The translations under genes were made by a program, and so were the position numbers. The notes under the pieces were generated by a model. That model had not been told where the DNA came from. It made no database searches and saw nothing but the letters and a program-made list of their open reading frames with translations. Source: Fictibacillus terranigra (GTDB lineage Bacteria; Bacillota; Bacilli; Bacillales; Fictibacillaceae). From it: 64,000 nucleotides of DNA. The stretch spans positions 992,001 through 1,056,000 of the forward strand of contig NZ_JAUHLN010000002.1 in NCBI RefSeq assembly GCF_030412265.1, in the 5' to 3' direction. Below are positions 10,348-35,291 of the stretch, one piece after another; the first letter of the stretch is position 1, and every line of letters begins with the position of its first letter.

Positions 10348-11685
10348 TTATTGATTCAGTCTCTCGATCCTTTTCATCAGGCGGCTTATACATTTATTGG
10401 ATTCATATAGGACGGTCTTTTTATCAATGTTTCTCAGAAGTCGGTGCTCCATCACGATTTCACCGTCAATTATGGTCGTTTCCACGTCAGCTCGCGTAGC
10501 CGAATAGACGATGCGGGAGATTGTATCCACCCCATAAGATGGATACATGTGAAAGCCATTGAGGTTCAGAATGGCAAGGTCCGCTTTTTTTCCAGCCTCC
10601 AGGCTCCCAATTTCTTGATCCATGCCAACTGCACGGGCCCCTCCAATGGTGGCCATCCGGAACACCGTTTTGGCATTCATGGCAGTCGGCCCGTGGACAG
10701 GCTTTTGGATGAGCGCAGCCAGCCTCATTTCGTTCAGCATGTCCAAGTTATTATTACATGGAGCTCCATCTGCCCCTAGACTTAAATCAATGCCTTGCTG
10801 CAGCATTTCCGGTACATCGGCAATTCCTGAGGAAAGTTTCAGATTAGACCCAGGACAATGGCTGACTTTTACCTTGCGTTTTTTTATGATGCTTTTTTCT
10901 TCATCATCCAGCCACACACAATGAGCCAGAATGAGCTTCTCATTGGCAAGACCTAAATGATCCAGATAAACAACGTTTCGCATTCCGGTTTCCTGCTCCA
11001 CCAAGGCAATTTCTCCCCGGTTTTCGGCCGCATGTGTATGAACGCATACACCGTGCCGGTCAGAAAGCTTCCGCACTTCGGTCAGCAGCTCCTCCGTACA
11101 TGAAACAACAAAACGGGGGCAAAAAGCGTATTGAATCCGCCCGTTCTGTTTCCCATGCCACTTTTCAAGCAGGTCGGCGCTTTCCTGAAGAGACACTGAT
11201 GTTCTCTCTCTCAGTCCATACGGCACTTCTTCCCCTTTGTCCATCATCACTTTCCCGGAAAGGGCACGGATGCCGCTTTTTGCAATGGCCTGAAAGGCAA
11301 AATCGGCATGGCTGACCGTCTCCATATCGACGATCGTTGTTGTCCCGCTCTGAAGCAGTTCCCCAATTCCAAGAAGCGCTGAATAATAGAGTGATTCCTC
11401 ATCATGTGAGGCTTCGAGCGGCCATATTTTTTGTTTCAGCCAATCCATTAATTCAAGGTCATCGGCTTGTCCTCTGAACAAGGTTTGACATAGATGTATA
11501 TGGGTCTGAATAAACCCTGGGATGATCGTCTTGTTTGTGGCATCTATTGTTTTATCCGCTTGATAATCGAGCGATTGGCCAATATCAATAATGCGGTTGT
11601 TTTCGATGTAAAGATCTCCTCGAATGATTTCATCTTTTTCGTTCATCGTCACAATTTCAGCATTCTTTATTAGAATGGACGGCAT
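10348..11685 (-). CDS. Amidohydrolase-superfamily aminohydrolase (COG0402 type), last gene of BMC operon
   Basis: 445-residue cytosolic metal-dependent hydrolase related to guanine/cytosine deaminases, chlorohydrolases and MtaD-like deaminases. Metal ligands are visible: HIH in GFIQTHIHLCQT, HTHAAEN, LAHCVWL followed by VSHCPGSNLKLSSG, and GADGAPCNNN. AAGGAGG precedes the ATG, but that site is folded into a hairpin downstream of a variant purine-riboswitch fold, so its translation may be ligand-controlled. In this context it could deaminate guanine or a ring-opened purine intermediate such as 4-aminoimidazole; that is inference. Confidence 0.85.
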   Translation of the reverse strand: MPSILIKNAEIVTMNEKDEIIRGDLYIENNRIIDIGQSLDYQADKTIDATNKTIIPGFIQTHIHLCQTLFRGQADDLELMDWLKQKIWPLEASHDEESLYYSALLGIGELLQSGTTTIVDMETVSHADFAFQAIAKSGIRALSGKVMMDKGEEVPYGLRERTSVSLQESADLLEKWHGKQNGRIQYAFCPRFVVSCTEELLTEVRKLSDRHGVCVHTHAAENRGEIALVEQETGMRNVVYLDHLGLANEKLILAHCVWLDDEEKSIIKKRKVKVSHCPGSNLKLSSGIADVPEMLQQGIDLSLGADGAPCNNNLDMLNEMRLAALIQKPVHGPTAMNAKTVFRMATIGGARAVGMDQEIGSLEAGKKADLAILNLNGFHMYPSYGVDTISRIVYSATRADVETTIIDGEIVMEHRLLRNIDKKTVLYESNKCISRLMKRIERLNQ

Positions 11686-11692
11686 CGTTATC

Positions 11693-11718
11693 CTCCTTTT
11701 CTTCTTGCAGAAAAGAAG
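11693..11718 (-). promoter_or_regulatory. RBS-sequestering hairpin (riboswitch expression platform)
   Basis: On the minus strand CTTCTTTTC (11718-11710) can pair with GAAAAGGAG (11701-11693) across an 8-base loop: nine pairs, one of them G-U. The second arm contains most of the AGGAGG ribosome binding site (11697-11692) of the aminohydrolase gene. The sequence just upstream of P1 is purine-rich (GAAAAAGAAAG) and might compete for the CTTCTTTTC arm. Translational control is inferred. Confidence 0.6.
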
Positions 11719-11722
11719 ATCG

Positions 11723-11794
11723 ATTTCATAGCGTGGAGAATTTAAGGTCCTCCGGTAGACACTTTCGATCCGTATTACCGAAACTATATGAAAT
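11723..11794 (-). ncRNA. Variant purine-riboswitch aptamer
   Basis: A 72-base three-way junction on the minus strand. P1 is a perfect 8-bp helix, ATTTCATA (11794-11787) with TATGAAAT (11730-11723). P2 is TCGGT/ATCGA with loop AATACGG; P3 is GGAGGA/TTCTCC with loop CCTTAAA. The GG of L2 and CC of L3 keep the loop-loop pairing of guanine riboswitches. J2/3 is AAGTGTCTAC against the canonical AAGUUUCUAC. J1/2 is TAGTT against UAAUC, and the P3-to-P1 strand reads ACGC before TATG where xpt has GAC. These core changes suggest an altered ligand. It lies between the DUF1989 gene and the aminohydrolase gene. Confidence 0.85.
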
Positions 11795-11808
11795 CTTTCT
11801 TTTTCTAA

Positions 11809-12432
11809 TCATCGCTCTTTCGTTAACACTTGAAGCATTAAAGACGTAACCGAAAAACCGTTAACCGGGGCCATGTCCTGTGAACAGGTGGAACAGGCGG
11901 TGACCACATCCTCCAATGCCTTCAACCTGATAAAATCCCCTGGCTTCGACAGAGGCTCAGCAATGACATAATCTCCTTTATCATCCAACACATTGTTCAT
12001 GAACCAGTTGATCGGATCCGGTACAGGAAGGTGGCCAAGCGAATATGTTCCTAACGCTTTAATCAAATTATCATGGCAGTTTGGATGATCTTCAAGCTGG
12101 AAGTCTACTTTATAGCGATAATAGTCACATGCCGGAAAAAAGAAATCGTGCTTGCCTACCGTGTCCTGCAAAAGCTGCATGAGCGGCCTGCGGCGGTTGC
12201 TGTACAGAAAATCTCCTTCTTTCAGACGGATGCTGCTTAAGCTCGCCCTCATATGGACCGGTGAGACATGCTCACTTGGATCCTGGAGAGAAAAACAGAC
12301 AAAGTCACCGACCTGCTTTCCTTCCATGTCGATGATCACGAGCTCCTCACCAGCTTTTACGAGTGTGCTTCTTGCTTCATATGGAGGTATAACCACCTCT
12401 TCTTTGATTCGGTATTTGTGGTCAATAGGCAT
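11809..12432 (-). CDS. DUF1989 (urea carboxylase-associated family) protein
   Basis: 207-residue protein of the DUF1989 family, seen elsewhere next to urea carboxylase and nitrogen-compound catabolism genes. Recognisable segments are GEELVIIDMEGKQVGDFVCF, SLSSIRLKEGDFLYSNRRRP, DFFFPACDYYRY and the C-terminal DVVTACSTCSQDMAPVNG, whose cysteines may bind metal. No reaction is established. It sits between the cyclase gene and the riboswitch inside the BMC operon, so a role in the last steps of nucleobase breakdown is likely but not shown. Confidence 0.8.
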   Translation of the reverse strand: MPIDHKYRIKEEVVIPPYEARSTLVKAGEELVIIDMEGKQVGDFVCFSLQDPSEHVSPVHMRASLSSIRLKEGDFLYSNRRRPLMQLLQDTVGKHDFFFPACDYYRYKVDFQLEDHPNCHDNLIKALGTYSLGHLPVPDPINWFMNNVLDDKGDYVIAEPLSKPGDFIRLKALEDVVTACSTCSQDMAPVNGFSVTSLMLQVLTKER

Positions 12433-12444
12433 TTTTTTCCCCCT

Positions 12445-13128
12445 TTATTCTATAAAAACAGCAACCGCCCGAACCGGCGACCCCGTTCCTTTCCGTATCC
12501 TCAGAGGCAGTCCAAAATATAGAAAACGCATGCCCGCAACCTGGTCAAGATTGCAAAGATTTTCAGTGTTGGTGATGCCGTATTCCTTACAGATCAAATG
12601 GCCCGAGTAATTCGTGTCGAGCGGATGATCGATGGCCGGGGCATCAATTCCGATGTTAACTACCCCTTTTTCAGCAAGCCAGCGTGCTCCGCTGTAATCG
12701 AGGCCTGTATAGCGAGTCAGCCATTCCTCCGTTCCGTATGAACGGTTGTAATGGCCGGTATACAACAAGCAAATATCCCCTTTTTGCAAAATTTGGCCCG
12801 AAGCATTCAATGCGTTATCCAACTCTCTGGGGGTAATGTACTCTTCCGGCTTAACTTGAGACAAGTCCAGGCATACGGCAGGGCCATAAAAGAAATCCAA
12901 TGGCATCTCGTCGATATACTTTCCATCAGGATCGTATTCGTACGTTGCATCACTGTGGGTAGGGCCGTGTTCATTGATCAATAAATTGTTGGTAGCGAAA
13001 GGAAAGCCGATCTTCCGAATGCTTTCTTCATGAGAAATGTTGGGAAAAATCATCGTTTTTTGATGAAGCGGAAAAACCGGCATACCCTGATAGATTTCTT
13101 GAGACAAATCTACAAGTTTCACACCCAT
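12445..13128 (-). CDS. Cyclase-family hydrolase (kynurenine-formamidase-like)
   Basis: About 227 residues of the metal-dependent cyclase/KynB family. The signature HGPTHSDAT corresponds to the family's HxGTHxDxP-type zinc motif; the N-terminal DLSQEIYQGMPVFP and the C-terminal RAVAVF strand fit too. Family members hydrolyse cyclic or acyclic amides. In this operon it is a candidate for opening an imidazolone or similar ring (inference). GGAGGGG stands 6 bases before the ATG at 13128; the GTG at 13134 is less likely. Confidence 0.82.
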   Translation of the reverse strand: MGVKLVDLSQEIYQGMPVFPLHQKTMIFPNISHEESIRKIGFPFATNNLLINEHGPTHSDATYEYDPDGKYIDEMPLDFFYGPAVCLDLSQVKPEEYITPRELDNALNASGQILQKGDICLLYTGHYNRSYGTEEWLTRYTGLDYSGARWLAEKGVVNIGIDAPAIDHPLDTNYSGHLICKEYGITNTENLCNLDQVAGMRFLYFGLPLRIRKGTGSPVRAVAVFIE

Positions 13129-13140
13129 AGACACCCCTCC

Positions 13141-14949
13141 TTACAGTACTGTAGGAATGACCTGGAATCGATCGACATCAATGAGACCCATGTCTGTAAT
13201 CTTCCACTCCGGGCTCGTAACGAGCGAGAGGAATGAAAGATGCATAAACGGAACATGGATTCCACAGCCAAGTTCTTCTTTAGTAAGCCGGTGGAGCTCT
13301 GCAATCTTTTCACTGACCTCCATGCCGGTCATCTCATCCGTCATCAAGCCGCCGATATTGAGAGCCATGTCCCCTACTACTCTTCCTTCATTGATTAATG
13401 CGAGGCCTCCGTTCATGGCTATAACTCTGTTGACCGCGGTCACCATGTCTTCATAGTTCGTGCCGCAGACGATAATATTATGTGTATCATGGGCCACGCT
13501 TTCTGCTATAGCCCCTCTTTTCAGTTTAAAGCCATGTAGAAACGTTTTCCCGATCCTGCCGCTTCTGCCATGACGTTCGACGACTGCGAGGGGCAGGACG
13601 TCCTGCTGAATACACGGCTGGACGATGCCGTCCTTGACCTTCAGTTCGAACTCCCTTGCACCTGTAAGATTTTGGTCAGGTATCACTTCGATGGCCCTGA
13701 CATTTGCTCTTGACGACTGCGACGGAAGCACCAAATCGTTTGTTTTAAGCGGTTTTCTTTTTACCGAGCGCTTCACACTGTCAGGATACGTGTAGGCAGG
13801 GATTTCCACTGTCAGCCTTTGCTGTTCTGCTGCCTTTTTCCCGCTCAGATACACTTTTTCAACCGTCATGTTGATAAGGTCACTGATTACCGCAATATCT
13901 GCACGCTTTCCTGGTGTCAGCACCCCAATATCCTTGAACCCAAAATGAGTAGCCGGATTGATCGTCACCATCTGAATCGCTTCCACCGGATCAATTCCCT
14001 GTGCGATTGTTCGTTTGACGATCTCGTTCATATGGCCGGTTTTCATCAAGTCCTCCGGAACCATATCATCGGAAACAAGGATAGCTCGCCTTGAATCCAT
14101 TCCTTCTTCTTTAATTGCCCGTATGCACTCTGCCATGTTCCGCTGGGAAGAACCTTCCCGCATAAACACACTCACGCCAAAACGGAGCTTCTCCACCATT
14201 TCTTCCTTCGTTGTCGTCTCATGGCACGAGATATGAGTTCCCCCACTGATGATGTGGGCAGCGAGTTCTTCACCAAACAGAGCCGGAGCATTTCCCTCCA
14301 CTGTCTTACCGATGCTTTTTGCGTAGGATACCGAGGCAATCAGGTCATCGATCAATTCAGGCGCGTTCTCGAACACAGGCCTGACATTGCTGAACCCCTG
14401 TATTTCACCGATGCCTTGAACATGTGGATCGTTCAATAGTGTCTTCATTTCGGCTGATGTCACATCCTGGCCTGCCGTCTCCAACCCAGGAGCATCGGGA
14501 GTCAGACATGGTACGGTAAACAACACGGTGTTTGGAAGAGTCTTTGCCTCACGCACCATCTCCCGCATACCTTGAACACCGAGAACATTCCCGATCTCAT
14601 GGGGATCGGCGACCAGTGTTGTCGTTCCTGTTGGAATGGAAAGCTTGGAGAATTCCGTGACAGTAAGCATCGCACTTTCAAAATGCATGTGAGAATCAAT
14701 AAATCCAGGGGTGATATAGCATCCGGACACGTTCTCGACCTCTGTGGCAGGACCAATCAATTTTTCACAGTCCCCGACCATCAGGATGTACTCCCCTTTC
14801 ATCGCCACATCGGCCTGATAGATCTCACGGGTTATGACATTAATAAACTGTCCGCCTTTCAGGACGATATCTGCGAATTGATTGGCATCAAGCAGCACAT
14901 CAATGAGTTTTCGCCACTGGATGGCTTCTTTAATACCCTTTGTATCCAT
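13141..14949 (-). CDS. Adenine deaminase-type amidohydrolase (BMC operon copy)
   Basis: 602 residues with the full adenine-deaminase layout: N-terminal beta domain, metal ligands in PGFIDSHMHFESA, DPHEIGNVLG, the GEIQGF segment, EGNAPALFGEEL, HISCHET and VSDDM, then a C-terminal domain with VAHDTHNIIVCGTN. The family uses manganese or iron to convert adenine to hypoxanthine. A second homologue is at 30501. Having two suggests that one, perhaps this shell-linked copy, acts on another amino-heterocycle such as 4-aminoimidazole; that is inference. Five bases separate it from the EutN-type gene. Confidence 0.85.
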   Translation of the reverse strand: MDTKGIKEAIQWRKLIDVLLDANQFADIVLKGGQFINVITREIYQADVAMKGEYILMVGDCEKLIGPATEVENVSGCYITPGFIDSHMHFESAMLTVTEFSKLSIPTGTTTLVADPHEIGNVLGVQGMREMVREAKTLPNTVLFTVPCLTPDAPGLETAGQDVTSAEMKTLLNDPHVQGIGEIQGFSNVRPVFENAPELIDDLIASVSYAKSIGKTVEGNAPALFGEELAAHIISGGTHISCHETTTKEEMVEKLRFGVSVFMREGSSQRNMAECIRAIKEEGMDSRRAILVSDDMVPEDLMKTGHMNEIVKRTIAQGIDPVEAIQMVTINPATHFGFKDIGVLTPGKRADIAVISDLINMTVEKVYLSGKKAAEQQRLTVEIPAYTYPDSVKRSVKRKPLKTNDLVLPSQSSRANVRAIEVIPDQNLTGAREFELKVKDGIVQPCIQQDVLPLAVVERHGRSGRIGKTFLHGFKLKRGAIAESVAHDTHNIIVCGTNYEDMVTAVNRVIAMNGGLALINEGRVVGDMALNIGGLMTDEMTGMEVSEKIAELHRLTKEELGCGIHVPFMHLSFLSLVTSPEWKITDMGLIDVDRFQVIPTVL

Positions 14950-14953
14950 GATC

Positions 14954-15232
14954 TCAACCTCCCGACCTTTCCCAGTCTAGGCTATCTATAATTCCGACGA
15001 TGGCTGCATCAATGGGAGCATCCTTGTCGGCTGCAGCGCGAGAAGCCATACTCCCGGTCACATACAAGACTTTTTCGCCAACTCCTGCACCCACCGTATC
15101 GACAGCGATGATCGGTAAATACTTCAGCGTATCATTGGTGCCGATCGGCTGGGTAATGAGCAGCTTCGATCCGATCAGCTTTTCATCTTTTCTGGTCGCT
15201 GTGACCCGCCCAACCACTAAACCCATTTGCAT
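14954..15232 (-). CDS. BMC vertex protein (EutN/CcmL family, BMC-P)
   Basis: 92 residues with the EutN/CcmL fold signature: GLVVGRVTATRKDEKLIGSKL at the start, IAVDTVGAGVGEKVLYVTGS in the middle, and DAAIVGIID at the end. Such proteins form pentamers that cap the vertices of the icosahedral shell. It is the only pentamer gene seen, enough for a closed shell together with the BMC-H proteins. AAGGAG precedes the ATG. Confidence 0.95.
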   Translation of the reverse strand: MQMGLVVGRVTATRKDEKLIGSKLLITQPIGTNDTLKYLPIIAVDTVGAGVGEKVLYVTGSMASRAAADKDAPIDAAIVGIIDSLDWERSGG

Positions 15233-15244
15233 GGCGTCCGCTCC

Positions 15245-15973
15245 TTACTGCCTGCAGATTTTTATACCGTATTGTTTTGCTGCATCCGCCGCCAGCGGAG
15301 TGATGATGGTTTGATCACCCGCCATAAGAAATTTCCTCTGTGTTTTTGCGGCAGCCAATATATCCGCTTCCGTTATGACAGACTGCGGTTGCCTTCCGCC
15401 ATTCATCCAGGAGCCAATACCTTCTCTCTCTCTCAGCAAGGTAACACCCAGCTTCTTTAACTCAAACAGTGATTGTTGAAGCTCTGTTTTTAAGTATCCC
15501 GGACCTTTATGCAGTTTCTTACTTTTGAACACTTCATGGTAAGGATCGCTGCCGCATGACAGAGCAGCCACTTTTTTACCGCTTAATAAAGCTTGCAGTA
15601 TGATACGTACAAAATCCCGCTGGTCATTAAAACGCAAGATATCGGCTGCAAGAGAAAAGGAAAGTACAGGTATAAGGATGCCATCCGCCATTTCCAGCCT
15701 TTCCTCTGTCAGACTTGAACTCGGATACCAGGCATCATGATTGATATCCACGGCGAGACGATCTTTCGAGTAATGGCGGAACAGCGTTTTCTCAGTGAAT
15801 ACTTCCAGTCTTATTTTGCTCGTGCCTGCTTCACGAAGAAGTTCAAGGCCTTCTTCCATTCCAGCAAAATGATAGGTTAGCAGGGAAAGCACATAGGGGG
15901 CTTCTTCTCCAGGCGGGCAAAGCATCTTCAGTAAAATATTCTTGACGAGTGCGCTCTGCCTTGGGTCATGCAC
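15245..15973 (-). CDS. BMC-associated flavoprotein-like protein of unknown function
   Basis: 242 residues, no firm assignment. The middle has a Rossmann/flavoprotein-like pattern: a strand GILIPVLSFSLAADILRFNDQRD, then IILQALLSGKKVAALSCGSDPYHE, reminiscent of flavoprotein-domain proteins found in some BMC loci. The N-terminus (SALVKNILLKMLCPP, residues ~7-21) can form a short amphipathic helix followed by Pro, as encapsulation peptides do. A C-terminal VITEADILAAA segment is also typical of such BMC-linked proteins. Possible roles are a redox partner or prenyl-FMN handling for UbiD; both are inference. Confidence 0.55.
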   Translation of the reverse strand: MHDPRQSALVKNILLKMLCPPGEEAPYVLSLLTYHFAGMEEGLELLREAGTSKIRLEVFTEKTLFRHYSKDRLAVDINHDAWYPSSSLTEERLEMADGILIPVLSFSLAADILRFNDQRDFVRIILQALLSGKKVAALSCGSDPYHEVFKSKKLHKGPGYLKTELQQSLFELKKLGVTLLREREGIGSWMNGGRQPQSVITEADILAAAKTQRKFLMAGDQTIITPLAADAAKQYGIKICRQ

Positions 15974-15975
15974 CT

Positions 15976-16254
15976 TTACTCTCCTTTAGAAAGAAGGGCT
16001 CTTTCGATTTCACTATGAGGGCGCGGAATGACATGTACAGAGACGAGTTCTCCCACCCGGCTCGCCGCACTGGCACCCGCATCAGTGGCAGCCTTTACTG
16101 CTCCTACATCTCCTCTAACCATAACTGTTACAAGGCCAAACCCTACTTTTTCATAGCCGCAGATCTCAACGTTCGCTGCTTTTACCATGGCATCTGCTGC
16201 TTCGATCGCCCCGACAAGGCCTTTGGTTTCAATCAAGCCTAGAGCTTCTCCCAT
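15976..16254 (-). CDS. BMC shell hexamer protein (BMC-H), PduA/EutM type
   Basis: 92 residues, one BMC domain. The family pattern is complete: [68 protein letters not shown]. The pore loop reads KVGFGLV, with Phe where PduA has Ser, giving a bulkier pore. AGGAGG lies 7-8 bases before the ATG at 16254, while it abuts the ATG at 16260, so 16254 is chosen. The stop is 3 bases before the next gene's start. Confidence 0.95.
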
Positions 16255-16256
16255 TT

Positions 16257-16586
16257 TCATTCCTCCTGGTCTCTTTGGTTTGCTGACGCTAAGGTAAAGG
16301 CTGACAGAAGTCTTTCAGCCACATTGGAATGGGTTCTTGGTATAACATGTGATGATATAACGGTACCTACCCTTTCCGCCTCTTTTTTGCCCGCCTCCAC
16401 AGCAGAAGCTACAGCGGCTACATCTCCGCTCAAATGCAAAGTAACACCAAGAGCGCCCTGGACCCCGATCACCTTCTCGATAGCCGCTATCTTTACATCG
16501 GCCGCTTTCACAGCCGCGTCTGCTGCTGAAACGGCTGCGCAATACCCTACTGTTTCAATCATGCCTAATGCATACAATGGTTTCAC
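16257..16586 (-). CDS. BMC shell hexamer protein (BMC-H), divergent pore
   Basis: 109 residues starting at a GTG (16586) preceded by GAGGAAGG; a longer frame to 16796 overlaps the upstream gene and is not coding. The BMC domain runs [22 protein letters not shown] ... [13 protein letters not shown] ... [10 protein letters not shown]. The pore-loop region has [11 protein letters not shown] instead of VGSGLVTV: two residues longer and lacking the usual GSG, so it likely has a different pore. The GTGA overlap with the upstream stop implies coupled translation. Confidence 0.92.
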
Positions 16587-17521
16587 CGTCCTTCCTCGTT
16601 TCTCGAATCCAGCATCCGATAAACATCTGGCAGGAAGCTGGAAAGAAGCTGCTGCGGCCCATAAAGTAAAAAGTAGCCTTCTTCTATTTTGGACCGGATA
16701 TTCAAGCTTGATAGTTTGGCAGAGATGGGAAGAAGGAGAGCAATAGCCTCGTAACGCGGCATTCCTTCTACGATTGCAAGCGATTCTCTTGTACATGAGA
16801 CGTCAAGCTGTTTAATGAGCCAAGTTCCCGGCTGTTCGATATAAAATCGTTTGATTTTTTTTTCCGACTGATGGTCCAACGTTTGAAACAGGGTTCGAAT
16901 GGCTGTTTCAAGTGCCGTGCTTTCGTTAAGATAAAGTTCGAGAAGAAATGGATTCCTGCCGTTTTTATCCCATTGGATGTAATATTTTACATCTGGATAC
17001 TGTGACAGCCATTCCTGGATAAGCACAAGCTGACCCGGTGAACAAGCAACGGAAGAAAAGACGGCTACCGCTTTTGCCGGGATCGGCCGATGGAACCACT
17101 CTATCATTTGTGGCTCCAGGTTCGTATAGAGCCAGACAGAGATGCCGTTTTTTGTTTTGCCTAGAGATTTTGCTGATGGTCCAGTATGAAGCGGATCCGC
17201 CACTTGATTTTTTTCTGTTAGATTACGGGATGGAATCCCTTGGGAAAGAGAAAGGACCTGAAGCCTCGATACGAGCTCATTTGACTGATCCTTGCTAAAC
17301 GGTCTTTGCCATTGTTTTTCTCTTCCAGCAGGAGGAACAGCAGTGCCCCCCAAACGTTTTTCCTTTTTCAGTCTTTGATAGTTGGGGCGGTATAGCTCGG
17401 GCACATTCTGTTTATAAGAGGTATCCTCCATCACTTCATTCGGCTCTTGTTTCCCTTTAACGGACGAGGGAGTATTGGATTTTAAAACCTCCTGTACGAT
17501 GGCTCGCATGAATTCTGACAT
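16583..17521 (-). CDS. BMC-locus protein of unknown function with candidate encapsulation peptide
   Basis: 312 residues, not recognised. Residues 2-15 (SEFMRAIVQEVLKS) look like a classic N-terminal encapsulation peptide, an amphipathic helix that targets cargo to the shell. A Pro/Lys/Gln-rich low-order linker follows to about residue 125, then a ~185-residue folded domain. The last ~65 residues (ESLAIVEGMPRYEAIALLLP...) faintly recall the beta-alpha start of a BMC domain, so it could be a degenerate shell-like or scaffold protein. Located between two shell genes, with a 4-base GTGA overlap to the downstream one. Confidence 0.7.
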   Translation of the reverse strand: MSEFMRAIVQEVLKSNTPSSVKGKQEPNEVMEDTSYKQNVPELYRPNYQRLKKEKRLGGTAVPPAGREKQWQRPFSKDQSNELVSRLQVLSLSQGIPSRNLTEKNQVADPLHTGPSAKSLGKTKNGISVWLYTNLEPQMIEWFHRPIPAKAVAVFSSVACSPGQLVLIQEWLSQYPDVKYYIQWDKNGRNPFLLELYLNESTALETAIRTLFQTLDHQSEKKIKRFYIEQPGTWLIKQLDVSCTRESLAIVEGMPRYEAIALLLPISAKLSSLNIRSKIEEGYFLLYGPQQLLSSFLPDVYRMLDSRNEEGR

Positions 17522-17536
17522 GGGGCCTCACCTCCG

Positions 17537-17800
17537 CTAAAGAATTTTGGTTAACTCTGGATGAGGCCGGGGAATTACATTTGAAGAGATCAGTTCTCCT
17601 CCCGTCTGGATGTGGGCCTGCCTCCCCACTTCGATGGCAGACGACACAGCAGCTACATCGCCTTCAATTATAACGGTGACAAGGCCAGATCCTACTTTTT
17701 TGAAGGCTGTCATTTGTATGTTTGCAGCTTTTGCCATGGCATCAAGCGCTTCAATCGCAGCGGTCAGCCCTCTTGTTTCAATCATGCCGATTGCATTCAC
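17537..17800 (-). CDS. BMC shell hexamer protein (BMC-H), canonical pore
   Basis: 87 residues, one BMC domain: AIGMIETRGLTAAIEALDAM, AFKKVGSGLVTVIIEGDVAAVSSAIEVG, SSNVIPRPHPEL. The pore loop KVGSGLV is the canonical PduA/EutM form, making this the likely main facet protein. First of the shell genes in transcription order, just after ubiD-like and ahead of the encapsulation-peptide protein. Confidence 0.95.
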   Translation of the reverse strand: MNAIGMIETRGLTAAIEALDAMAKAANIQMTAFKKVGSGLVTVIIEGDVAAVSSAIEVGRQAHIQTGGELISSNVIPRPHPELTKIL

Positions 17801-17819
17801 TCACGGTCCCCCCCTTGGT

Positions 17820-19160
17820 TTATATATAATCTTTAAGATCAATCGGCCCGAACGGTACAGAAGTGCGTTTGAACGATTCCTTATGAGCGAGCGGAACCGT
17901 AGCGTCAATTCCCATTTTAGCTGTGACTCCCCGAACATTGTGAGACGACTCGAGTGGAGATCCTTTTGCACCCGGTACAATAAAAATATCCTGATCGGCC
18001 TGGACTCTTACCGCCATCGCCCATTCCACATCCTCGGGGTCAAAGATATCGACATCTTCATCGACTACAATCACGTGCTTTAAGTCTTTATCACTCGCAA
18101 AAGCTGCAAGCGCTGCTTGCTTTCCGTCTCCATCTGATCTCTTCTCAATCTGAATGACCGCATGGAACCTTGCTACCCCGCCCATCGTAATATGAACTCG
18201 TTTGACGTTCGGTACGGTCTGTCTTACCGTACTGAGCAATGTAGCCTCCCGGACAAGCGCCATCGGCAGCCGCTCTTCATAGCTGGAGGGAAAGATAGTC
18301 TGACAGATCGCATGGTTGCGATAGGTTACTGCTGAAAACTCAATGACTGGCTGCGGAGCTCTTGCTCCATAAAACCCTGCAAGCTCTCCGAACGGCCCTT
18401 CCATTTCCCGTTCATGGGGAATGATCCTGCCCTCCATGACGATTTCCGCTTCTGCCAAAACTTCAAGATCCACCGTTTTGCATCGCACCACTTCAAACGG
18501 CTTGCCGATCAACGCACCGGCAACATCGAGTTTGTCAGCATGATACAGATGGGTGCTGATCTGAGAGCTGAGCACCACCGCCGGCACCACGCCAAACATG
18601 ACAGCGACCTCCAGCGGTTCATCACGCTCTTCAAACGTATAAAACTGATGCAGAAGTTCAGGTGAAGTAATGAGTACGTTTGTCCTGTTTCCGCCCAAAA
18701 ATTGCATCCTTCTGATGGAGGTATATCTTTTTCTTCCACTTGGATCCTTTACGACGAGAATACCCGAAACGTAATAGGCGCCCGAATCCTCTCCATGATA
18801 GGTCGGAATCGGAAAGAGCGAAGCCAAATCCATCGGCCCAAGCACCACATTTTCCTGAACGGGTCCTTTTTCGATCAGGCGGGTTGGGATGGGAGAGACA
18901 ATTGAACCAATAATCTTTGGGACGAATTCATCCGGTGTGATGCCGATGCTGGCTGCGAGCAGATCCCTGTCTCCGCCGATCCCTCCTGCCATTGGAGATG
19001 AATAGCCCTTCACTTTTTCAAAATAGAACGGCTGGCTTCCCTGCCTGGAATTAAGGACCGCGCCGAGTTCAAACAAAGGATCCACTTCTTTTTTAATCCG
19101 GATGAGTTTCCCCTCCCCTTCCCATTGATCGAGAAGGGAGCGCAGTGAAGAAGGGTTCAC
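17820..19160 (-). CDS. UbiD-family prenylated-FMN-dependent decarboxylase
   Basis: About 446 residues. UbiD hallmarks are EGPFGELAGFYGAR, PIPTYHGEDSGAYYVSGILV, an N-terminal SLRSLLDQWEGEGKLIRI, and the C-terminal DSSHNVRG-like segment (LESSHNVRGVTAKMGIDAT). UbiD enzymes (de)carboxylate aromatic and alpha,beta-unsaturated acids using prenyl-FMN supplied by UbiX. GGGGGAG precedes a GTG at 19160 that overlaps the ubiX-like stop as GTGA, so this start is preferred over the ATG at 19175. In this operon a heteroaromatic acid such as 4-amino-5-imidazolecarboxylate is the suggested substrate (inference). Confidence 0.9.
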   Translation of the reverse strand: MNPSSLRSLLDQWEGEGKLIRIKKEVDPLFELGAVLNSRQGSQPFYFEKVKGYSSPMAGGIGGDRDLLAASIGITPDEFVPKIIGSIVSPIPTRLIEKGPVQENVVLGPMDLASLFPIPTYHGEDSGAYYVSGILVVKDPSGRKRYTSIRRMQFLGGNRTNVLITSPELLHQFYTFEERDEPLEVAVMFGVVPAVVLSSQISTHLYHADKLDVAGALIGKPFEVVRCKTVDLEVLAEAEIVMEGRIIPHEREMEGPFGELAGFYGARAPQPVIEFSAVTYRNHAICQTIFPSSYEERLPMALVREATLLSTVRQTVPNVKRVHITMGGVARFHAVIQIEKRSDGDGKQAALAAFASDKDLKHVIVVDEDVDIFDPEDVEWAMAVRVQADQDIFIVPGAKGSPLESSHNVRGVTAKMGIDATVPLAHKESFKRTSVPFGPIDLKDYI

Positions 19161-19726
19161 GCTTTCTCCCCCCATCTCCTGAGAAGTTCATGATCGATGC
19201 CCAACATGTCCAGAATCCGGCCGGACATAAAATTAATCAGCTCCCATATCTCTTTCGGTTTATGGTAGAACCCCGGTGATGCCGGCATGATGCAGGCGCC
19301 CGCTTCGGCAAGCCTTGTCATATTCTGAAGATGGATCAGATGAAACGGAGCTTCCCTTGGAACGACGATGAGCTGCCTCTTTTCTTTCAGCATGACAGAG
19401 GCGCAGCGGCTCAGGAGTGTGTCCCCGACTCCATTCGCCATCGCTCCCAGCGTGTTCATGGAGCATGGAACAACGACCATCCCATCATTTAAAAAGGATC
19501 CGCTCGCCACAGAGGCAAAAAGGTTCTTGTTGCTGTGTACTTCGGCATATTGCTTCACGGTTTCCATCCTGACGCCGCACTCAAACTGCAAGACCTTCTC
19601 TCCCATTTCGGTTACGATTAGATGGGTTTCCATCCCGAGCTGGTGGAGGGCACGGACGAGCGAGTATCCGTATAGTGACCCGCTCGCCCCCGTTATTCCT
19701 ACAACGATCCGTTTGTTTCGTCCCAT
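19157..19726 (-). CDS. UbiX-family flavin prenyltransferase
   Basis: 189 residues; makes prenyl-FMN from FMN and dimethylallyl (mono)phosphate for the UbiD partner. Motifs: VGITGASGSLYGYSLVRAL (flavin site), VVPCSMNTLGAMANGVGD, LIVVPREAPFHLIHLQNM and IMPASPGFYHKP. Coupled to the decarboxylase gene by a 4-base overlap and placed 6 bases after the cysteine hydrolase gene. Confidence 0.95.
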   Translation of the reverse strand: MGRNKRIVVGITGASGSLYGYSLVRALHQLGMETHLIVTEMGEKVLQFECGVRMETVKQYAEVHSNKNLFASVASGSFLNDGMVVVPCSMNTLGAMANGVGDTLLSRCASVMLKEKRQLIVVPREAPFHLIHLQNMTRLAEAGACIMPASPGFYHKPKEIWELINFMSGRILDMLGIDHELLRRWGEKA

Positions 19727-19732
19727 GGCAGA

Positions 19733-20323
19733 TTAGACGACCTGGCTGTTTTGGGAGAACTTTTTCTTGGCAGCCGCCATGTATTCTTTGGTCGTCATGA
19801 TATCGCCGAATAGTTCGATATCACGGAGACCGGATTCATGCATGGAATCATCTTTTGAAGCTGTGGAGTCGGACAAACAAATGACATTGTAGCCATGATA
19901 CAATGCATCAGAGCCTGTGCTTCTTACACAAACATTGGTCCAGACACCGGTAAGGACAACCGTATCAATCTCTTCTTCACGGCAGAACAGGTCAAAATCA
20001 GTATAGCTGAACGCACTATGCCGCCTTTTTTGAACGATATAATCTCCCTTGCTCTCATCAGGCTGCAATTCAGGGATAAACTGAGATCCCCATGTCCCTT
20101 TGACGGCATGAACCGGCCGTACCCTGAAATCACGGTCGTTCTTACGGTGCGCTTCTTGCACAAAAACGACCTGGATATTTTCTTCATGGCAAAAGTCGAC
20201 TAGTTCTTTAATGGCCGGTACAATTTTTTCGCCGTTTTTGCATCGGAGGGCCGCTTTTTCTCCGATAAAGTCATTGAGCATATCAATAACAACGACTACA
20301 TGCTTCTTGCCTCTCAGTTCCAT
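19733..20323 (-). CDS. Isochorismatase-like cysteine hydrolase (candidate N-carbamoyl hydrolase)
   Basis: 196 residues. The catalytic triad of the family is visible: Asp14 (VVVIDMLNDF), Lys99 (IVQKRRHSAF) and Cys132 (GVWTNVCVRST), with the cis-peptide region before the Cys. Relatives include nicotinamidase, N-carbamoylsarcosine amidohydrolase and ureidoacrylate amidohydrolase. Next to a cyclic amidohydrolase, the natural reading is hydrolysis of the ureido (N-carbamoyl) group released by ring opening; substrate is inference. Part of the minus-strand BMC operon. Confidence 0.88.
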   Translation of the reverse strand: MELRGKKHVVVVIDMLNDFIGEKAALRCKNGEKIVPAIKELVDFCHEENIQVVFVQEAHRKNDRDFRVRPVHAVKGTWGSQFIPELQPDESKGDYIVQKRRHSAFSYTDFDLFCREEEIDTVVLTGVWTNVCVRSTGSDALYHGYNVICLSDSTASKDDSMHESGLRDIELFGDIMTTKEYMAAAKKKFSQNSQVV

Positions 20324-20338
20324 ATACGGTCTCCTCTC

Positions 20339-21817
20339 TTACTTGCTTTTTTCTAGTTCTTGCCGGCCTGACTTTGGAGCTTCTGCTCTGGAAGTTTCAT
20401 ACTTTTCATACTTTAACGTCCGATCAAGGCGCTGGATGCTCTGCCGTTTAACGTACTCTCCATAACCAGCTTCACCTACAATCCCGCCATCTTCATAGTG
20501 ATAGACCATGTTGCCCCGTACAATCGTCTGCACCGGACGCCCTTTGAGCTTGATGCCATGAAGCGGGTTATACTTCGCCATCGATTCGGTCTGTTTCTCA
20601 TCGATTTCCCACTCGCAATCAAGATCGATGACTGTGAAGTCCGCATCACTGCCGATCTCCATCGCTCCTTTTTTCGGATAGATGCCATAATGGATCGCTG
20701 CGTTCTTACTTGTTACTTCAACAAAGCGTGACAAGGATAACCGTCCTTTGTTCAAACCTTCACTGACGAGAATCGGCACCATCGTTTCCACTCCTGGAAT
20801 GCCCGGGAAGCTGTTCCAGATCGTTGAATCCGCTGCAGCTTTTTCAGTTGCAATCTCATAAGGCGCGTGATCAGTACCGACAAAATCAATCGTTCCATCA
20901 GCCAGTGCCTGCCAATGTGCCTGATTGTCATCTTTGCCACGCAGCGGCGGAGCGATCTTGGCAAATGTTCCTCTCTCACTCATGGAGTCCTGCGCGTTCA
21001 GCATCAGATAGTGCGGACATGTTTCGGCTGTTACCTTTACGCCGCGTTTCTTAGCTTCACGGACGAGCTTGACCCCTTCCTTCGTACTCATGTGAACGAC
21101 GTGGACCCGTGCATCGGTCGCTTCTGCATAGCTGATGATCAGCTCGATCGCCACTTTTTCAGCAAGAGCCATCCTTGCCTCTGCCCATGCCGGACCGTCT
21201 TCCCGCCCCTCCTTCTTCAACTTCTCCGTATAAAAGGTGCAGATGTCATAGTTTTCTGCATGAACACCAATCGGCATGCCGGTTTTCGCAACCTTTTGAA
21301 AGATCTCAAGCATCTCTCCATCGGATACCTTTGGGAACGTCGGCACTGACGGCGTCATGTAAACCTTAAACGCCACAACTCCTTCGTCGATCTGCGGATA
21401 GATGTTATCGATCCAGCCGTTCCTCGCGTCTTCCCCGGTCATGCCGCCCCAGAAGCAATAATCGATGTATGCCTGTCCCCGAATGGGAGCGATTTTTTTC
21501 TGGAAGCTTTCACCGTCCCGAACGGAGGGTTTGGAACAGCAAGGCATATCGATGATCGTCGTAAGCCCGCCCGCCGCGGCAGATCTTGAACCCGTCGCAA
21601 ACGTCTCACGGTGAGTGAAGCCTGGATCCATGAAATGCGTGTGCGGATCAATGCATCCAGGGACGACGAGCTTTCCTTCCATGTCGAGTACCTTGTCCGC
21701 TTTTAGAAAATGAATGTCATTGCAAAATCCTGTGATTTTCCCTTCGTTCACGAGAATATTGGTAATTACCGTACGGTCTCCTTGTGGAATCATTGCATTC
21801 TTTAAAATCAAGTCCAT
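20339..21817 (-). CDS. Cyclic amidohydrolase (dihydropyrimidinase/allantoinase/dihydroorotase family)
   Basis: 492 residues. Binuclear metal-site residues are visible: HTH in GCIDPHTHFMDPG, Lys in FKVYMTPS (to be carbamylated), His in GVHAEN and VHMST, and Asp in GTDHAPY. The segment NSFPGIPGVETMVP is like allantoinases. It opens cyclic amide rings. The C-terminal ~35 residues are a charged extension. With the carbamoyl hydrolase and UbiD/UbiX behind it, opening of the xanthine pyrimidine ring to 4-ureido-5-imidazolecarboxylate is the favoured idea (inference); allantoin or dihydropyrimidines are alternatives. Confidence 0.85.
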   Translation of the reverse strand: MDLILKNAMIPQGDRTVITNILVNEGKITGFCNDIHFLKADKVLDMEGKLVVPGCIDPHTHFMDPGFTHRETFATGSRSAAAGGLTTIIDMPCCSKPSVRDGESFQKKIAPIRGQAYIDYCFWGGMTGEDARNGWIDNIYPQIDEGVVAFKVYMTPSVPTFPKVSDGEMLEIFQKVAKTGMPIGVHAENYDICTFYTEKLKKEGREDGPAWAEARMALAEKVAIELIISYAEATDARVHVVHMSTKEGVKLVREAKKRGVKVTAETCPHYLMLNAQDSMSERGTFAKIAPPLRGKDDNQAHWQALADGTIDFVGTDHAPYEIATEKAAADSTIWNSFPGIPGVETMVPILVSEGLNKGRLSLSRFVEVTSKNAAIHYGIYPKKGAMEIGSDADFTVIDLDCEWEIDEKQTESMAKYNPLHGIKLKGRPVQTIVRGNMVYHYEDGGIVGEAGYGEYVKRQSIQRLDRTLKYEKYETSRAEAPKSGRQELEKSK

Positions 21818-21902
21818 TTCTGTCGCTCCTTTTTTACGTATTCAGGACAGAACCAGAGAAAAGGGGGCATTGTTGACATGCCCCTGATCGTGAGCAGCCA
21901 AA

Positions 21903-23231
21903 CTATTGAGCCTCTGCAGAAGCATCCGTTTTCAGCTGTTCCATCCTTTCCTGCTCATTTATATTCATAGACCTAAAATTAAATACTAGATTTAGCAAAA
22001 TTGCCGTTAAACTTCCAATCACAATCCCGTTTTCGACGAGAAGCCTGACACTGTCCGGGAGCTGGCTGAACACCATGGGAACCACTGCTGTCCCAAGCCC
22101 TATCCCTACAGAACAGGCGACGATCAGCAGGTTCTCATTGCTTGAAAAATCAGCCTGAGAAAGCATCTTTACGCCAGAAGCGATCACCATCCCGAACATC
22201 GGAACCATCGCACCGCCAAGGACAGCCGTTGGAATGATCGTCGTCAGCGCTGCGATCTTTGGAAGCAGTCCGAGAATGAGCAGTAACCCTCCCGCCGCAA
22301 TAACAACGTTTCTCGTTTTTACTTTCGTTAAAGCAACAAGCCCAACATTTTGAGAGAACGACGTATAAGGAAACGAGTTGAAGATGCCCCCGATCATGAC
22401 CGCCAGCCCTTCGGCACGAAGACCTTTTTTAATATCCTCTGGCTTTAGGTCTCTTTCACAGATGTCACTTAACGCAAGAAAGACACCGGTTGATTCAATC
22501 ATGCTGACGATTGCAACAATGGTCATCGTCAGGATCGCTGAGAAGTGAAATTCAGGCACACCAAAATAGAACGGCTGCACAAGGTGGAACCAGGAGGCAT
22601 CCTTTACGGGTGCAGCATCTACGAGACCCATGAAAGAAGCCAGAAACGTTCCCGCAATCAGTGATATAAGAACAGAGATTGCGCGTACATATCCTTTGGA
22701 AAACCGGTTGATCAGAATGATGAGCACAAAAGTAAAACTCGCCAAAGATAAATTTTCAAGGCTTCCGAAACCTTTCGAACCGAGGCCTCCAGCTGCATTA
22801 TTCATCGCTACCGGTATGAGCGATACACCAATAATGAGGACCACGGAACCGGTAACAATCGGCGGGAAAAATTTCAGGATCTTTCCTACAAATTGGGATA
22901 GCACCATAACAACGAGCCCTGAAGCAATAATCGCTCCATAAATGGCGGTAATTCCCTCCAGCTTTCCAATGGCGATCATAGGAGCGACGGCCGTAAACGT
23001 ACAGCCCAGGATAATGGGGAGCCGTATCCCGAAGTGCCTGCCTCCGAGAACCTGCAGCAAGGTAGCGATCCCGCAAGTAAACAGATCAATAGAGATGAGA
23101 TAAGCAAGCTGCTGCGCGTTCATTCCGATCGCTGGCCCTACGATGAGCGGTACAATGACCGCTCCTGCATACATGGCAAGAACATGCTGAAAACCAAGTA
23201 CTCCAACTTTCCATTTTTGAAGTGCTGCCAT
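21903..23231 (-). CDS. Nucleobase permease, NCS2/NAT family (xanthine/uracil/urate type)
   Basis: About 442 residues and 12-14 membrane segments. NAT-family marks: VGVLGFQHVLAMYAGAVIVPLIVG at the start and the substrate-site stretch FPYTSFSQNVGLVALTKVKTR. It resembles PucJ/PucK and PbuX-like transporters of xanthine and urate. AAGGAGGT precedes the ATG at 23231; an open frame continues to 23354 but without support. First gene of the BMC operon and divergent from xanthine dehydrogenase, so it probably imports the substrate. Confidence 0.9.
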   Translation of the reverse strand: MAALQKWKVGVLGFQHVLAMYAGAVIVPLIVGPAIGMNAQQLAYLISIDLFTCGIATLLQVLGGRHFGIRLPIILGCTFTAVAPMIAIGKLEGITAIYGAIIASGLVVMVLSQFVGKILKFFPPIVTGSVVLIIGVSLIPVAMNNAAGGLGSKGFGSLENLSLASFTFVLIILINRFSKGYVRAISVLISLIAGTFLASFMGLVDAAPVKDASWFHLVQPFYFGVPEFHFSAILTMTIVAIVSMIESTGVFLALSDICERDLKPEDIKKGLRAEGLAVMIGGIFNSFPYTSFSQNVGLVALTKVKTRNVVIAAGGLLLILGLLPKIAALTTIIPTAVLGGAMVPMFGMVIASGVKMLSQADFSSNENLLIVACSVGIGLGTAVVPMVFSQLPDSVRLLVENGIVIGSLTAILLNLVFNFRSMNINEQERMEQLKTDASAEAQ

Positions 23232-23520: not shown

Positions 23521-24003
23521 TTGAAGACCATTGATTTTTGCGTAAACGGAAAGAATGTGTCAGTCATTTGCAGTCCGGCAAAGACTTTGCTTGATGTGCT
23601 GAGGGAAGACGCCGGATTAACAGGAAGCAAAGAATGTTGCGGAAAAGGAGAATGCGGCTCCTGTACTGTTCTGCTCAATGATGTGCCAGTTTGTTCATGC
23701 TTGGTGCTGGCAGGACAGGTTGAAGGAGAACGAGTGGTCACAGTGGAAGGAATTGGAACGAAACAGGCGATGGATCCTGTGCAGCAGGCATTTGTGGATG
23801 AAGGAGCAACCCAGTGCGGGTATTGCACACCTGGTCTGATTGTAGCTTCACGGGCGTATTTAACTTCCATCGGCCATGTTCCGGGCCTCGATGAAATCAA
23901 ACGGGCGCTTGGCGGAAATCTATGCCGGTGTACCGGCTATACTAAAATTCTGCAAGCCGTCCAGACGGCCGCTGCCCGACAGCTTTCATCCCGTGAGCTC
24001 TAG
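23521..24003 (+). CDS. pucE: Xanthine dehydrogenase, [2Fe-2S] subunit
   Basis: 160 residues with both iron-sulfur motifs of the family: the plant-ferredoxin type (CCGKGECGSC ... C) and the helical-domain type (QCGYCTPG ... CRCTGY). It passes electrons from the molybdenum site to FAD. The start is TTG at 23521 after GGGGAGGG. First gene of the plus-strand puc operon; the next gene overlaps its 3' end. Confidence 0.95.
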   Translation: MKTIDFCVNGKNVSVICSPAKTLLDVLREDAGLTGSKECCGKGECGSCTVLLNDVPVCSCLVLAGQVEGERVVTVEGIGTKQAMDPVQQAFVDEGATQCGYCTPGLIVASRAYLTSIGHVPGLDEIKRALGGNLCRCTGYTKILQAVQTAAARQLSSREL

Positions 24004-24598
24004 CACGCCTTCCCTATCAGCCATCGTGCTTGGCGCAGGCCGTTCATCAAGAATGAGGACATTGAAAGCACTGCTTCCATGGAAAGGTACCTCACTCATC
24101 CGCTTTCAAACCGAAACACTGTTAAACGCCGGAATATCAGACATTGTGGTTGTTCTAGGATTCAGGGCAGCAGATTTATCAAACGAGCTCAGCTCCTACA
24201 CTATAAAAACAGTGATGAACAAAGACTATCATTCTGGGAAATGCTCGTCCATCAAAGCTGGATTGGCAGCCATAACTCAACCTTCTTCAGGTGTCATCAT
24301 ATGTGCGGTCGACCAGCCGTTATCATTGAATGTCGTTAGAAACTTGTACAAGCTCCACACGAAACACCCTGCCGCGATTATCCTTCCCTCCTTTAAAGGA
24401 AAACGCGGACATCCCCTGCTTATCCCGAAGTCTCTTTATGATGATCTGCAGGACATTAAGGAGCAGACACAGGGACTGAGGCACTTGGTCAACACCCGCC
24501 GGAAAGAAATCGTAACTGTCGAATTGGATGAACCAAGTATTCTTTTAAATCTAAATGAACAAGCCGATTACCAGGAGGCCTGTTGGGAGGATTCGTAA
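23993..24598 (+). CDS. pucB: MobA-like NTP transferase (molybdenum cofactor cytidylyl/guanylyltransferase)
   Basis: About 201 residues when started at the GTG at 23993, which overlaps the pucE stop; the open frame to 23876 lies inside pucE. Nucleotide-binding motif IVLGAGRSSRMRTLKALLPWKG is followed by GVIICAVDQPLS and the acceptor-site region KRGHPLLIPK. Homologues (PucB, MocA) attach CMP to molybdopterin for xanthine dehydrogenase. No strong ribosome site stands before the GTG, so coupling to pucE is likely and the exact start is uncertain. Confidence 0.85.
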   Translation: MSSSTPSLSAIVLGAGRSSRMRTLKALLPWKGTSLIRFQTETLLNAGISDIVVVLGFRAADLSNELSSYTIKTVMNKDYHSGKCSSIKAGLAAITQPSSGVIICAVDQPLSLNVVRNLYKLHTKHPAAIILPSFKGKRGHPLLIPKSLYDDLQDIKEQTQGLRHLVNTRRKEIVTVELDEPSILLNLNEQADYQEACWEDS

Positions 24599-25482
24599 TG
24601 TTTGTTTCAGAGATTGATATGCTGTCGCCTCGTTCTCTAAAGGAATGTCTTTTTATCCTGGAGAACGAAAAATCAAGCCTCCGCCTCTTAGCCGGGGGAA
24701 CAGACGCCGTCGTGAGGATGAAAGAAGGAAAATGGCGGCCTGACTACTGGGTAAACCTTAAACATGTGGACGAGCTTCGTTTCATAACCATACAAAAAGA
24801 TGAAATTCAGATCGGACCTCTCACCACTCATTCTGAAATCATAAACTCCCCTCTTCTACAGGCTCATGCCGACGTACTCGTACAAGCCTGCCAGGAAATT
24901 GGAGCCACCCAGATGCAGAACATGGGGACCATTGGAGGCAATATCGCCACAGCCTCTCCTGCAGGTGATACGATTCCTGCTTTATATGCACTTGGAGCGG
25001 TGATCGAACTCACCTCATTATCCGGTAAACGAATGATAAACGTGGAGGACTTCTTTATCGGACCCGGAAAAACCGCAGCCCAGCCCAATGAGATCATCTC
25101 CAAGATAGCATTTAACGTCCGCGGTAAAAATGACATCGGTATCTTTCAAAAGCTTGGTCCACGGAAAGCGCAGTCGATCTCCATCGTGAATGCAGCTGTT
25201 ACTCTTTCCATGAAACAAGGCACGAAAGAGTGCACAGGGGGCCGTATCGCTTTCGGTTCAGTAGGCCCTACGGTTATCCGGGCAAAGAAATGCGAGGCGA
25301 TGCTGACATTGGGCCCGCTTACAGACGAAATGATCGCCAATATTGGCAGGGTCGCCTGGAAAGAAGTCATGCCAATCTCTGATATCCGGGCCTCAGCGTC
25401 ATACCGAAGGGATATGGCTAGCGCACTTCTTGAACGCGGACTTTACCGTTTATTGAAAAGGTGGGCAGAACATGAAGAATAG
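24598..25482 (+). CDS. pucC: Xanthine dehydrogenase, FAD-binding subunit
   Basis: 294 residues of the CoxM/PucC family. FAD-binding signatures: RLLAGGTDAVVRMKEG near the start and the QMQNMGTIGGNIATASPAGD stretch. The ATG at 24598 follows GGGAGG and shares one base with the pucB stop (TAATG). Delivers electrons to NAD+ or another acceptor. Confidence 0.95.
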   Translation: MFVSEIDMLSPRSLKECLFILENEKSSLRLLAGGTDAVVRMKEGKWRPDYWVNLKHVDELRFITIQKDEIQIGPLTTHSEIINSPLLQAHADVLVQACQEIGATQMQNMGTIGGNIATASPAGDTIPALYALGAVIELTSLSGKRMINVEDFFIGPGKTAAQPNEIISKIAFNVRGKNDIGIFQKLGPRKAQSISIVNAAVTLSMKQGTKECTGGRIAFGSVGPTVIRAKKCEAMLTLGPLTDEMIANIGRVAWKEVMPISDIRASASYRRDMASALLERGLYRLLKRWAEHEE

Positions 25483-30423: not shown

Positions 30424-30436
30424 AGACAAAACCTTT

Positions 30437-35283: not shown

Positions 35284-35291
35284 GCAGATAG

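Follow-up and report, generated by a model that had tools for sequence, protein, structure and literature searches.

A predicted xanthine-utilization microcompartment of Fictibacillus terranigra in which a DUF1989 protein may replace formiminotransferase

Ravcheev et al. (2019; PMC6620236) named Siminovitchia (Bacillus) fordii DSM 16014 for a xanthine-utilization (Xau) bacterial microcompartment (BMC), and according to the available text of that paper the Xau BMC would be a third type of microcompartment by function, a proposal for which the authors want experimental validation. With the Xau type, a xanthine dehydrogenase (XDH) is expected in the genome, often near the locus. The last step of the published scheme is assigned to a folate-dependent formimidoyltransferase (XauG), an enzyme that the same paper already reports as missing from both Bacillus clusters, so XauG does not define the Xau family. 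In the part of PMC8156839 that was available, the type called BUF1 is equated with the Xau BMC. A related enzyme system is the xanthinase gene cluster, which was identified, and its enzyme studied, by Tong et al. in 2023 (as cited in PMC12507026, available in part). Here we compare these systems with an operon of Fictibacillus terranigra (contig NZ_JAUHLN010000002.1), which lies at 10348-23231 of a window, meaning the whole stretch of 64,000 nucleotides that was analysed. Judged from its genes and their order, the operon encodes a Xau/BUF1 microcompartment with xanthine as its substrate, with a probability of roughly 0.8. The features of the operon are, in the direction of transcription:

21903..23231, minus strand: NCS2 xanthine permease, pbuX-like (Xan_ur_permease; TIGR03173, 554.8 bits against a cut-off of 414.15)
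20339..21817, minus strand: xauA, cyclic amidohydrolase, predicted xanthinase for the first ring opening (Amidohydro_1)
19733..20323, minus strand: isochorismatase-family hydrolase, predicted to remove the carbamoyl group (PF00857)
19157..19726, minus strand: UbiX flavin prenyltransferase (TIGR00421, 218.3 bits against a cut-off of 108.9; Flavoprotein)
17820..19175, minus strand: UbiD-family decarboxylase (UbiD; TIGR00148, 321 bits against a cut-off of 244.85)
17537..17800, minus strand: BMC-H shell protein (PF00936)
16583..17521, minus strand: degenerate PduB/EtuB-like double BMC domain protein of 312 amino acids (model, Foldseek, hhalign, alignment)
16257..16586, minus strand: BMC-H shell protein (PF00936; start revised to GTG 16586)
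15976..16260, minus strand: BMC-H shell protein (PF00936)
15245..15973, minus strand: UbiX/EpiD-like flavoprotein-fold protein of 242 amino acids (model, Foldseek, weak TIGR02536)
14954..15232, minus strand: BMC-P vertex protein of EutN type (PF03319, EutN_CcmL)
13141..14949, minus strand: adenine-deaminase homologue, predicted 4-aminoimidazole deaminase (Amidohydro_1, Adenine_deam_C)
12445..13134, minus strand: cyclase/isatin-hydrolase-like hydrolase, predicted to open the ring of 4-imidazolone (PF04199)
11809..12432, minus strand: DUF1989 protein, predicted formiminoglycine deiminase (PF09347)
11709..11811, minus strand: purine riboswitch before 10348 (RF00167, 65 bits against a cut-off of 37)
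10348..11685, minus strand: 5'-deoxyadenosine-deaminase-like aminohydrolase (Amidohydro_1; NF005557, 729.3 bits against a cut-off of 522)

An earlier note on this stretch, made from its letters alone, had seen three BMC-H genes, one EutN-type gene and a set of hydrolases, UbiX/UbiD and a permease in one minus-strand operon. Pfam scans of all 15 open reading frames (ORFs) of the operon bear this out: every ORF is on the minus strand and the families lie where the note had placed them. What the note overlooked is a fourth, divergent shell-type gene at 16583-17521. This gene and the one at 15245 have no Pfam match in these scans, and neither do the scans give any match to the families of aldehyde dehydrogenase, alcohol dehydrogenase or phosphotransacylase, by which a classical metabolosome is known, so the statement that this is not one holds. 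In the whole F. terranigra genome (4.97 Mb) the BMC family has three matches, every one in the operon. The BMC-H protein at 15976..16260 is 87-100% identical across the relatives' loci compared. The 242-amino-acid protein at 15245 has a UbiX/EpiD-like flavoprotein fold by model and Foldseek, and it matches the BMC-associated TIGR02536 below cut-off (E 1.1e-7).

A genome collection yielded 45 named loci with xauA, the nearest of them from Fictibacillus (97% in XauA). All 13 genes of the block that runs from xauA at 20339 to the DUF1989 gene are found, in unchanged order, in 41 of the 45, which makes the operon real far beyond chance. L057 has all 13 genes with an additional isochorismatase homologue in front of xauA, L049 is missing DUF1989 from the block, L055 ends at a contig edge and L069 is broken; the last two are left out where undamaged loci are counted below. 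One locus, L054, is S. fordii DSM 16014 itself, where the same 13 core genes stand in the same order. This match with the genome of the original description, together with the equation with BUF1, means that the kind is already known and that the present locus is a further member of it. The resemblance covers the rest of the described character as well: BMC-H and BMC-P genes share the operon with the enzymes, the enzyme set comprises a ring-opening amidohydrolase, a second hydrolase, UbiD, an aminohydrolase and a permease, no aldehyde dehydrogenase is encoded in the operon, and XDH-family genes lie nearby. The earlier note's guess that this might be a dehydrogenase-free xanthine type listed in surveys was right, and the type is Xau/BUF1. 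The operon differs from the system as described in the available text of PMC6620236: the published scheme finishes with XauG, and shell proteins were counted there by the Pfam BMC domain, which the 312-amino-acid protein of the window does not have.

Some of the other loci call for caution. The f19 genomes L021-L024 were considered as cases without shell and UbiD and were rejected as such, as the locus is split there and its second half is found about 10 kb off. In L069 (Marinithermofilum abyssi) the xauA, permease and XDH-family genes are all in broken pieces, as if the locus were being lost. L044 and L041, titled Pseudomonas sp. ISL-84 and Paenibacillus sp., encode XauA proteins 83 and 86% identical to that of the window; their xau loci are about as near the window as those of Cytobacillus, and these are possibly mislabelled or mixed assemblies.

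Gene by gene, the operon matches the anaerobic (Rabinowitz-type) route of xanthine breakdown, a correspondence that homology supports. Xanthine would be imported by the permease, or produced by the adenine deaminase and the XDH-family enzyme encoded next to the operon, and XauA would open its six-membered ring. XauA residues H59, H61, K151, H186, H242 and D316, which we take to be of metal-ligand type, are invariant in 9/9 aligned sequences (the alignment leaves out L057 and L063, which have a stop codon within the range). The isochorismatase-like enzyme, whose matches to RutB and biuret hydrolase are distant and below cut-offs, would take off the carbamoyl group, and UbiD would decarboxylate the product, using prenylated flavin mononucleotide (prenyl-FMN) supplied by UbiX. 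For the next step, deamination of 4-aminoimidazole, the earlier note had offered 13141 or 10348. Of these, 13141 probably suits the step better, and 10348 scores as a 5'-deoxyadenosine deaminase. The 13141 protein reaches 469.5 bits against the ade cut-off of 472.5 and shares 36% identity with the adenine deaminase next to the operon, which passes it; so narrow a miss beside a relative that passes is in keeping with an altered substrate, for instance 4-aminoimidazole. The cyclase-family enzyme 12445 would then open 4-imidazolone to formiminoglycine. Its 11 relatives in the PDB include kynurenine formamidases and isatin hydrolases, enzymes that cleave amide or lactam bonds. The DUF1989 protein would hydrolyse formiminoglycine without folate, replacing the formiminotransferase used outside Bacilli, and the degenerate double-BMC protein would, via a peptide helix, tie the enzymes to the shell.

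The replacement at the last step is suggested by how the two families are distributed. Of 398 Bacilli genomes searched, 11 have xauA, that of the window included; all 11 hold DUF1989, once each, and none of them formiminotransferase (FTCD_N). A second search of 398 genomes of the phylum found xauA in 10, two of which are Bacilli already counted, leaving eight from classes other than Bacilli, probably Clostridia. In these eight, FTCD_N is present in seven and DUF1989 in none. Their enzymes resemble those of the window where they are found (XauA 62-67%, the isochorismatase-like enzyme 60-73% and UbiD 42-56% identical), and the clostridial xanthinase pathway as seen in these genomes differs from the operon in its FTCD, in the absence of DUF1989 and, in 2/8 genomes, in having no BMC match. 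The cyclase gene stands beside DUF1989 in the Bacilli operons. It is found in six of the eight other genomes, with its match next to that of FTCD in G629 and G519, at a distance of about 8 kb in three genomes and farther away in G588. Within the named loci, DUF1989 is present in 42 of the 43 undamaged ones.

The operon DUF1989 proteins also form a group of their own. In a tree of 45 sequences (24 from operons and 21 others from 20 regions, these being part of 36 further genomes with a match), the 24 operon sequences lie on one side of one branch with support 89/95; the branch is recovered in 92% of bootstrap trees, and 0/500 shuffles came out as low. The tree carries a long-branch warning, L132 being a long-branched neighbour of the operon group. 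The group is set apart from adjacent pairs such as carboxyguanidine deiminase would be expected to form and from other single genes. PF09347 takes in carboxyguanidine deiminase (PMC11410670, available in part), and CgdA/CgdB resemble the DUF1989 protein of the window in Pfam family and in the predicted chemistry, hydrolytic deimination of an amidine-like carbon. They differ in that the window has a single gene in a separate tree group and no guanidine carboxylase in the operon; with one PF09347 match in the genome, an adjacent CgdA and CgdB pair is not present. C102, C119 and C183 of the DUF1989 protein line up with cysteines in 3oru and in a trimethylamine N-oxide demethylase chain, and a zinc role of these PF09347 cysteines is given in the available part of PMC12560246. 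The presence and absence of DUF1989 and FTCD, the separate tree group and the membership of carboxyguanidine deiminase in the family together lean towards the operon DUF1989 protein being a folate-free formiminoglycine deiminase. Such an enzyme is described in no title or abstract found, in a literature search that covers few subscription journals, and the main texts of PMC6620236 and PMC8217296 nowhere use the name DUF1989.

The 312-amino-acid protein at 16583-17521 is the other component that the published description would not have counted. It has no match in NCBIfam or among PDB sequences, and in its family Pfam BMC matches 0/34 members (alignments A1 and A2, with 33 of the 43 named-locus sequences and the window); other Pfam matches are scattered, confined to single members and at chance level. 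The family has an N-terminal helix that resembles an encapsulation peptide, MSxFMKxIVQEVLK, then a variable linker and then RPNYQ, which is found in 43/43 named-locus sequences; alignment and model agree on a conserved helix at residues 3-13 with a disordered linker after it. The model has a mean predicted local distance difference test (pLDDT) value of 79.8, with ten-residue blocks of at least 90 between about residue 121 and residue 300, and consists of two beta-alpha-beta-beta-alpha units, that is, two tandem BMC folds. Its best PDB matches in Foldseek are PduB, EtuB and EutL (E 9e-7 to 1e-4, template modelling score about 0.4 by query). Loci of other classes, L098-L101, have a counterpart in the same operon position with a like N-terminal helix and recognisable BMC domains; the Pfam BMC match is present in L099:6984-7958, and RPNYQ in three of the four. 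An hhalign comparison of the window family with three counterparts gives 97.7% probability over 292 columns, with only 3 rows in the second profile, and the profile of the counterparts matches EtuB and PduB. Beside the double-BMC gene of L101 there is a second ORF (6804-7367) with another encapsulation-peptide-like helix.

In the Pdu BMC, residues 1-37 of PduB bind the shell to the enzyme core (PMC9132943, available in part). The window protein is like PduB in having a double BMC domain and an N-terminal extension; it differs in being too divergent for Pfam BMC and in its invariant RPNYQ in the linker. By analogy with this role of PduB, and with the model, the PduB/EtuB matches and the counterparts, the protein is a good if uncertain candidate for a PduB-type linker between shell and cargo whose tile domains have decayed. 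By a moment measure its N-terminal value is the highest (0.63), which alone proves little because several C-termini reach 0.55-0.72.

BMC genes lie near the pathway genes in all 11 Bacilli genomes with xauA. In the eight non-Bacilli genomes they occur in six, those of G519 on contigs other than that of xauA. A more tentative reading joins these observations: through the exchange of FTCD for DUF1989, the xanthine BMC of Bacilli might have become free of diffusible cofactors, so that the whole route, including the unstable aminoimidazole and imidazolone, could run in a sealed shell with the PduB-like RPNYQ linker. From xanthine to N-formylglycine the steps would all be hydrolyses, apart from a decarboxylation that uses bound prenyl-FMN; the cofactor recycling by which metabolosomes are defined would be absent, and RPNYQ would serve as a docking motif.

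Next to the operon, and divergently transcribed from it, is a set of genes that the earlier note overlooked as far as the XDH family is concerned:

23521..24003, plus strand: XDH-family [2Fe-2S] subunit (PF01799)
23876..24598, plus strand: MocA/MobA-like Mo-cofactor nucleotidyltransferase, ORF start uncertain (PF12804)
24583..25482, plus strand: XDH-family FAD subunit (PF00941, PF03450; below NCBIfam XDH cut-offs)
25472..27784, plus strand: XDH-family Mo subunit (PF02738, PF20256, PF01315; best NCBIfam match pucD, 681.1 bits against a cut-off of 783.65)
27777..28598, plus strand: XdhC-type maturation factor, C-terminal part (PF13478)
28595..28912, plus strand: XdhC/CoxI, N-terminal part (PF02625)
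29032..30423, plus strand: second NCS2 permease (PF00860; no NCBIfam match)
30408..32252, plus strand: adenine deaminase (TIGR01178, 678.7 bits against a cut-off of 472.5)

XDH-family genes fall within the retrieved flank of 31-32 of the 45 named loci. Also overlooked was the purine riboswitch at 11709-11811, between the DUF1989 gene and gene 10348. Its core has a C at the specificity position and some unusual bases; C at this position presumably marks guanine-type and not adenine-type purine riboswitches. Five of six relatives scanned have purine riboswitches (L054 has none), placed before the 10348 relative in L025 and L049, upstream of the XDH genes in L029, L036 and L049, and before a permease in L063. 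Gene 10348 itself is probably not a core enzyme of the route, to judge from its occurrence: a relative is found in 2/6 Bacilli regions that extend about 6 kb beyond DUF1989, and in at least 10 of the 45 named loci, a floor because all 42 named loci with DUF1989 end at most 1.5 kb beyond that gene. Its score as a 5'-deoxyadenosine deaminase, its own riboswitch and the 2/6 longer regions also make it the less likely aminoimidazole deaminase.

A few points of annotation remain. The start of the first permease is read as ATG 23231, preceded by AAGGAGG, where the ORF list had TTG 23354. For the BMC-H ORF listed as 16257-16796, GTG 16586 is read as the most likely start; most relatives have no match to the longer N-terminus. 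An ORF of 142 amino acids at 23472-23900 (minus strand), which was among the tblastn queries, was rejected as a conserved gene of the operon and is excluded from the counts: it runs antisense to the XDH-family FeS gene at 23521-24003, and this accounts for the alignment of its relatives. Promoter and terminator scans gave a signal no higher than the shuffled level. Elsewhere in the window, a cspA thermoregulator RNA is found at 34958-35321 on the plus strand (RF01766, 82.7 bits against a cut-off of 78).

How far can these readings be trusted? The genes present, their synteny, their homologies and the patterns of presence and absence are observed; all substrates, the enclosure of the enzymes and the roles given to the linker and to DUF1989 are inferred. 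That the microcompartment degrades another ureide or azole (hydantoin, allantoin or a dihydropyrimidine) is very unlikely. The best named relatives of XauA are indeed L-hydantoinase, allantoinase and dihydropyrimidinase, and with 355.4 bits it misses the NCBIfam allantoinase cut-off of 357.85 by only 2.4; yet among the best 25 of its 42 NCBIfam matches just pyrC_multi, a dihydroorotase model of subfamily-domain type, is above cut-off. The XDH-family genes, xanthine permease, purine riboswitch and adenine deaminase of the cluster speak for xanthine, as the earlier note had proposed, and the UbiD, adenine-deaminase-like and FTCD partners would suit purine breakdown. The near miss to allantoinase does count against xanthine, and several further findings weigh against the picture drawn here. 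The XDH subunits pass no NCBIfam XDH cut-off, and no enzyme for N-formylglycine was identified. G557 and G629 have xauA and no BMC match in assemblies 99 and 100% complete; each has two pairs of xauA and isochorismatase genes (L102-L105), one with UbiD, and as far as the assemblies are complete these two genomes are natural shell-free controls. FTCD_N occurs in only 14/398 Bacilli, so its absence there is ordinary; DUF1989, present in 47/398, is not ordinary in the same way, being found in 11/11 Bacilli with xauA and 36/387 others. The split between DUF1989 and FTCD follows that between Bacilli and other classes, and the pattern is thus confounded with ancestry. L049 has no PF09347 match in its genome despite having the operon, and there (L049 19963-21291) a riboswitch and a relative of gene 10348 come directly after the cyclase gene. 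L106 (G588) has a shell locus with no double-BMC ORF at the expected place, and no clear encapsulation peptide was seen on the operon enzymes of the window and up to 16 relatives.

The arrangement in L049 bears on a possibility that deserves to be kept in view, namely that DUF1989 acts otherwise, for example in deaminating aminoimidazole or a side product, and that formiminoglycine goes to the COG0402 enzyme 10348 or to a general formimidoyl hydrolase encoded elsewhere. Gene 10348 and formimidoylglutamate deiminase share a broad family, with matches far below cut-off, and an N-formylglycine hydrolase is not seen in the operon. Against this stand the score of 10348 above the 5'-deoxyadenosine deaminase cut-off and its patchy presence beyond DUF1989, as well as the near-constant presence of DUF1989 in undamaged named loci and its absence from the eight non-Bacilli genomes, where FTCD is the rule. 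A further point against it is that the adenine-deaminase homologue occurs in both groups of xauA genomes. DUF1989 as formiminoglycine deiminase remains the likelier reading. As for the 312-amino-acid protein, it is rather unlikely to be a scaffold inside the compartment or an ordinary minor tile of the shell instead of a PduB-type linker: its domains are so degenerate that Pfam misses them in every member, and the GGPGHG loop found in the other-class counterparts is absent from the window family, but it shares with those counterparts the operon position and N-terminal helix, and their profile matches EtuB and PduB.

Compared with the literature consulted, the exchange of FTCD for DUF1989, the riboswitch, the PduB-like protein and the place given to gene 10348 are new here, though Tong et al. 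2023 may overlap with them. The locus offers a compact model in a Bacillus relative, with a gene proposed for each step, and points to shell-free controls. If true, the reading of DUF1989 would say what some members of a family of unknown function do, and it would explain how the purine route of Bacilli finishes without folate.

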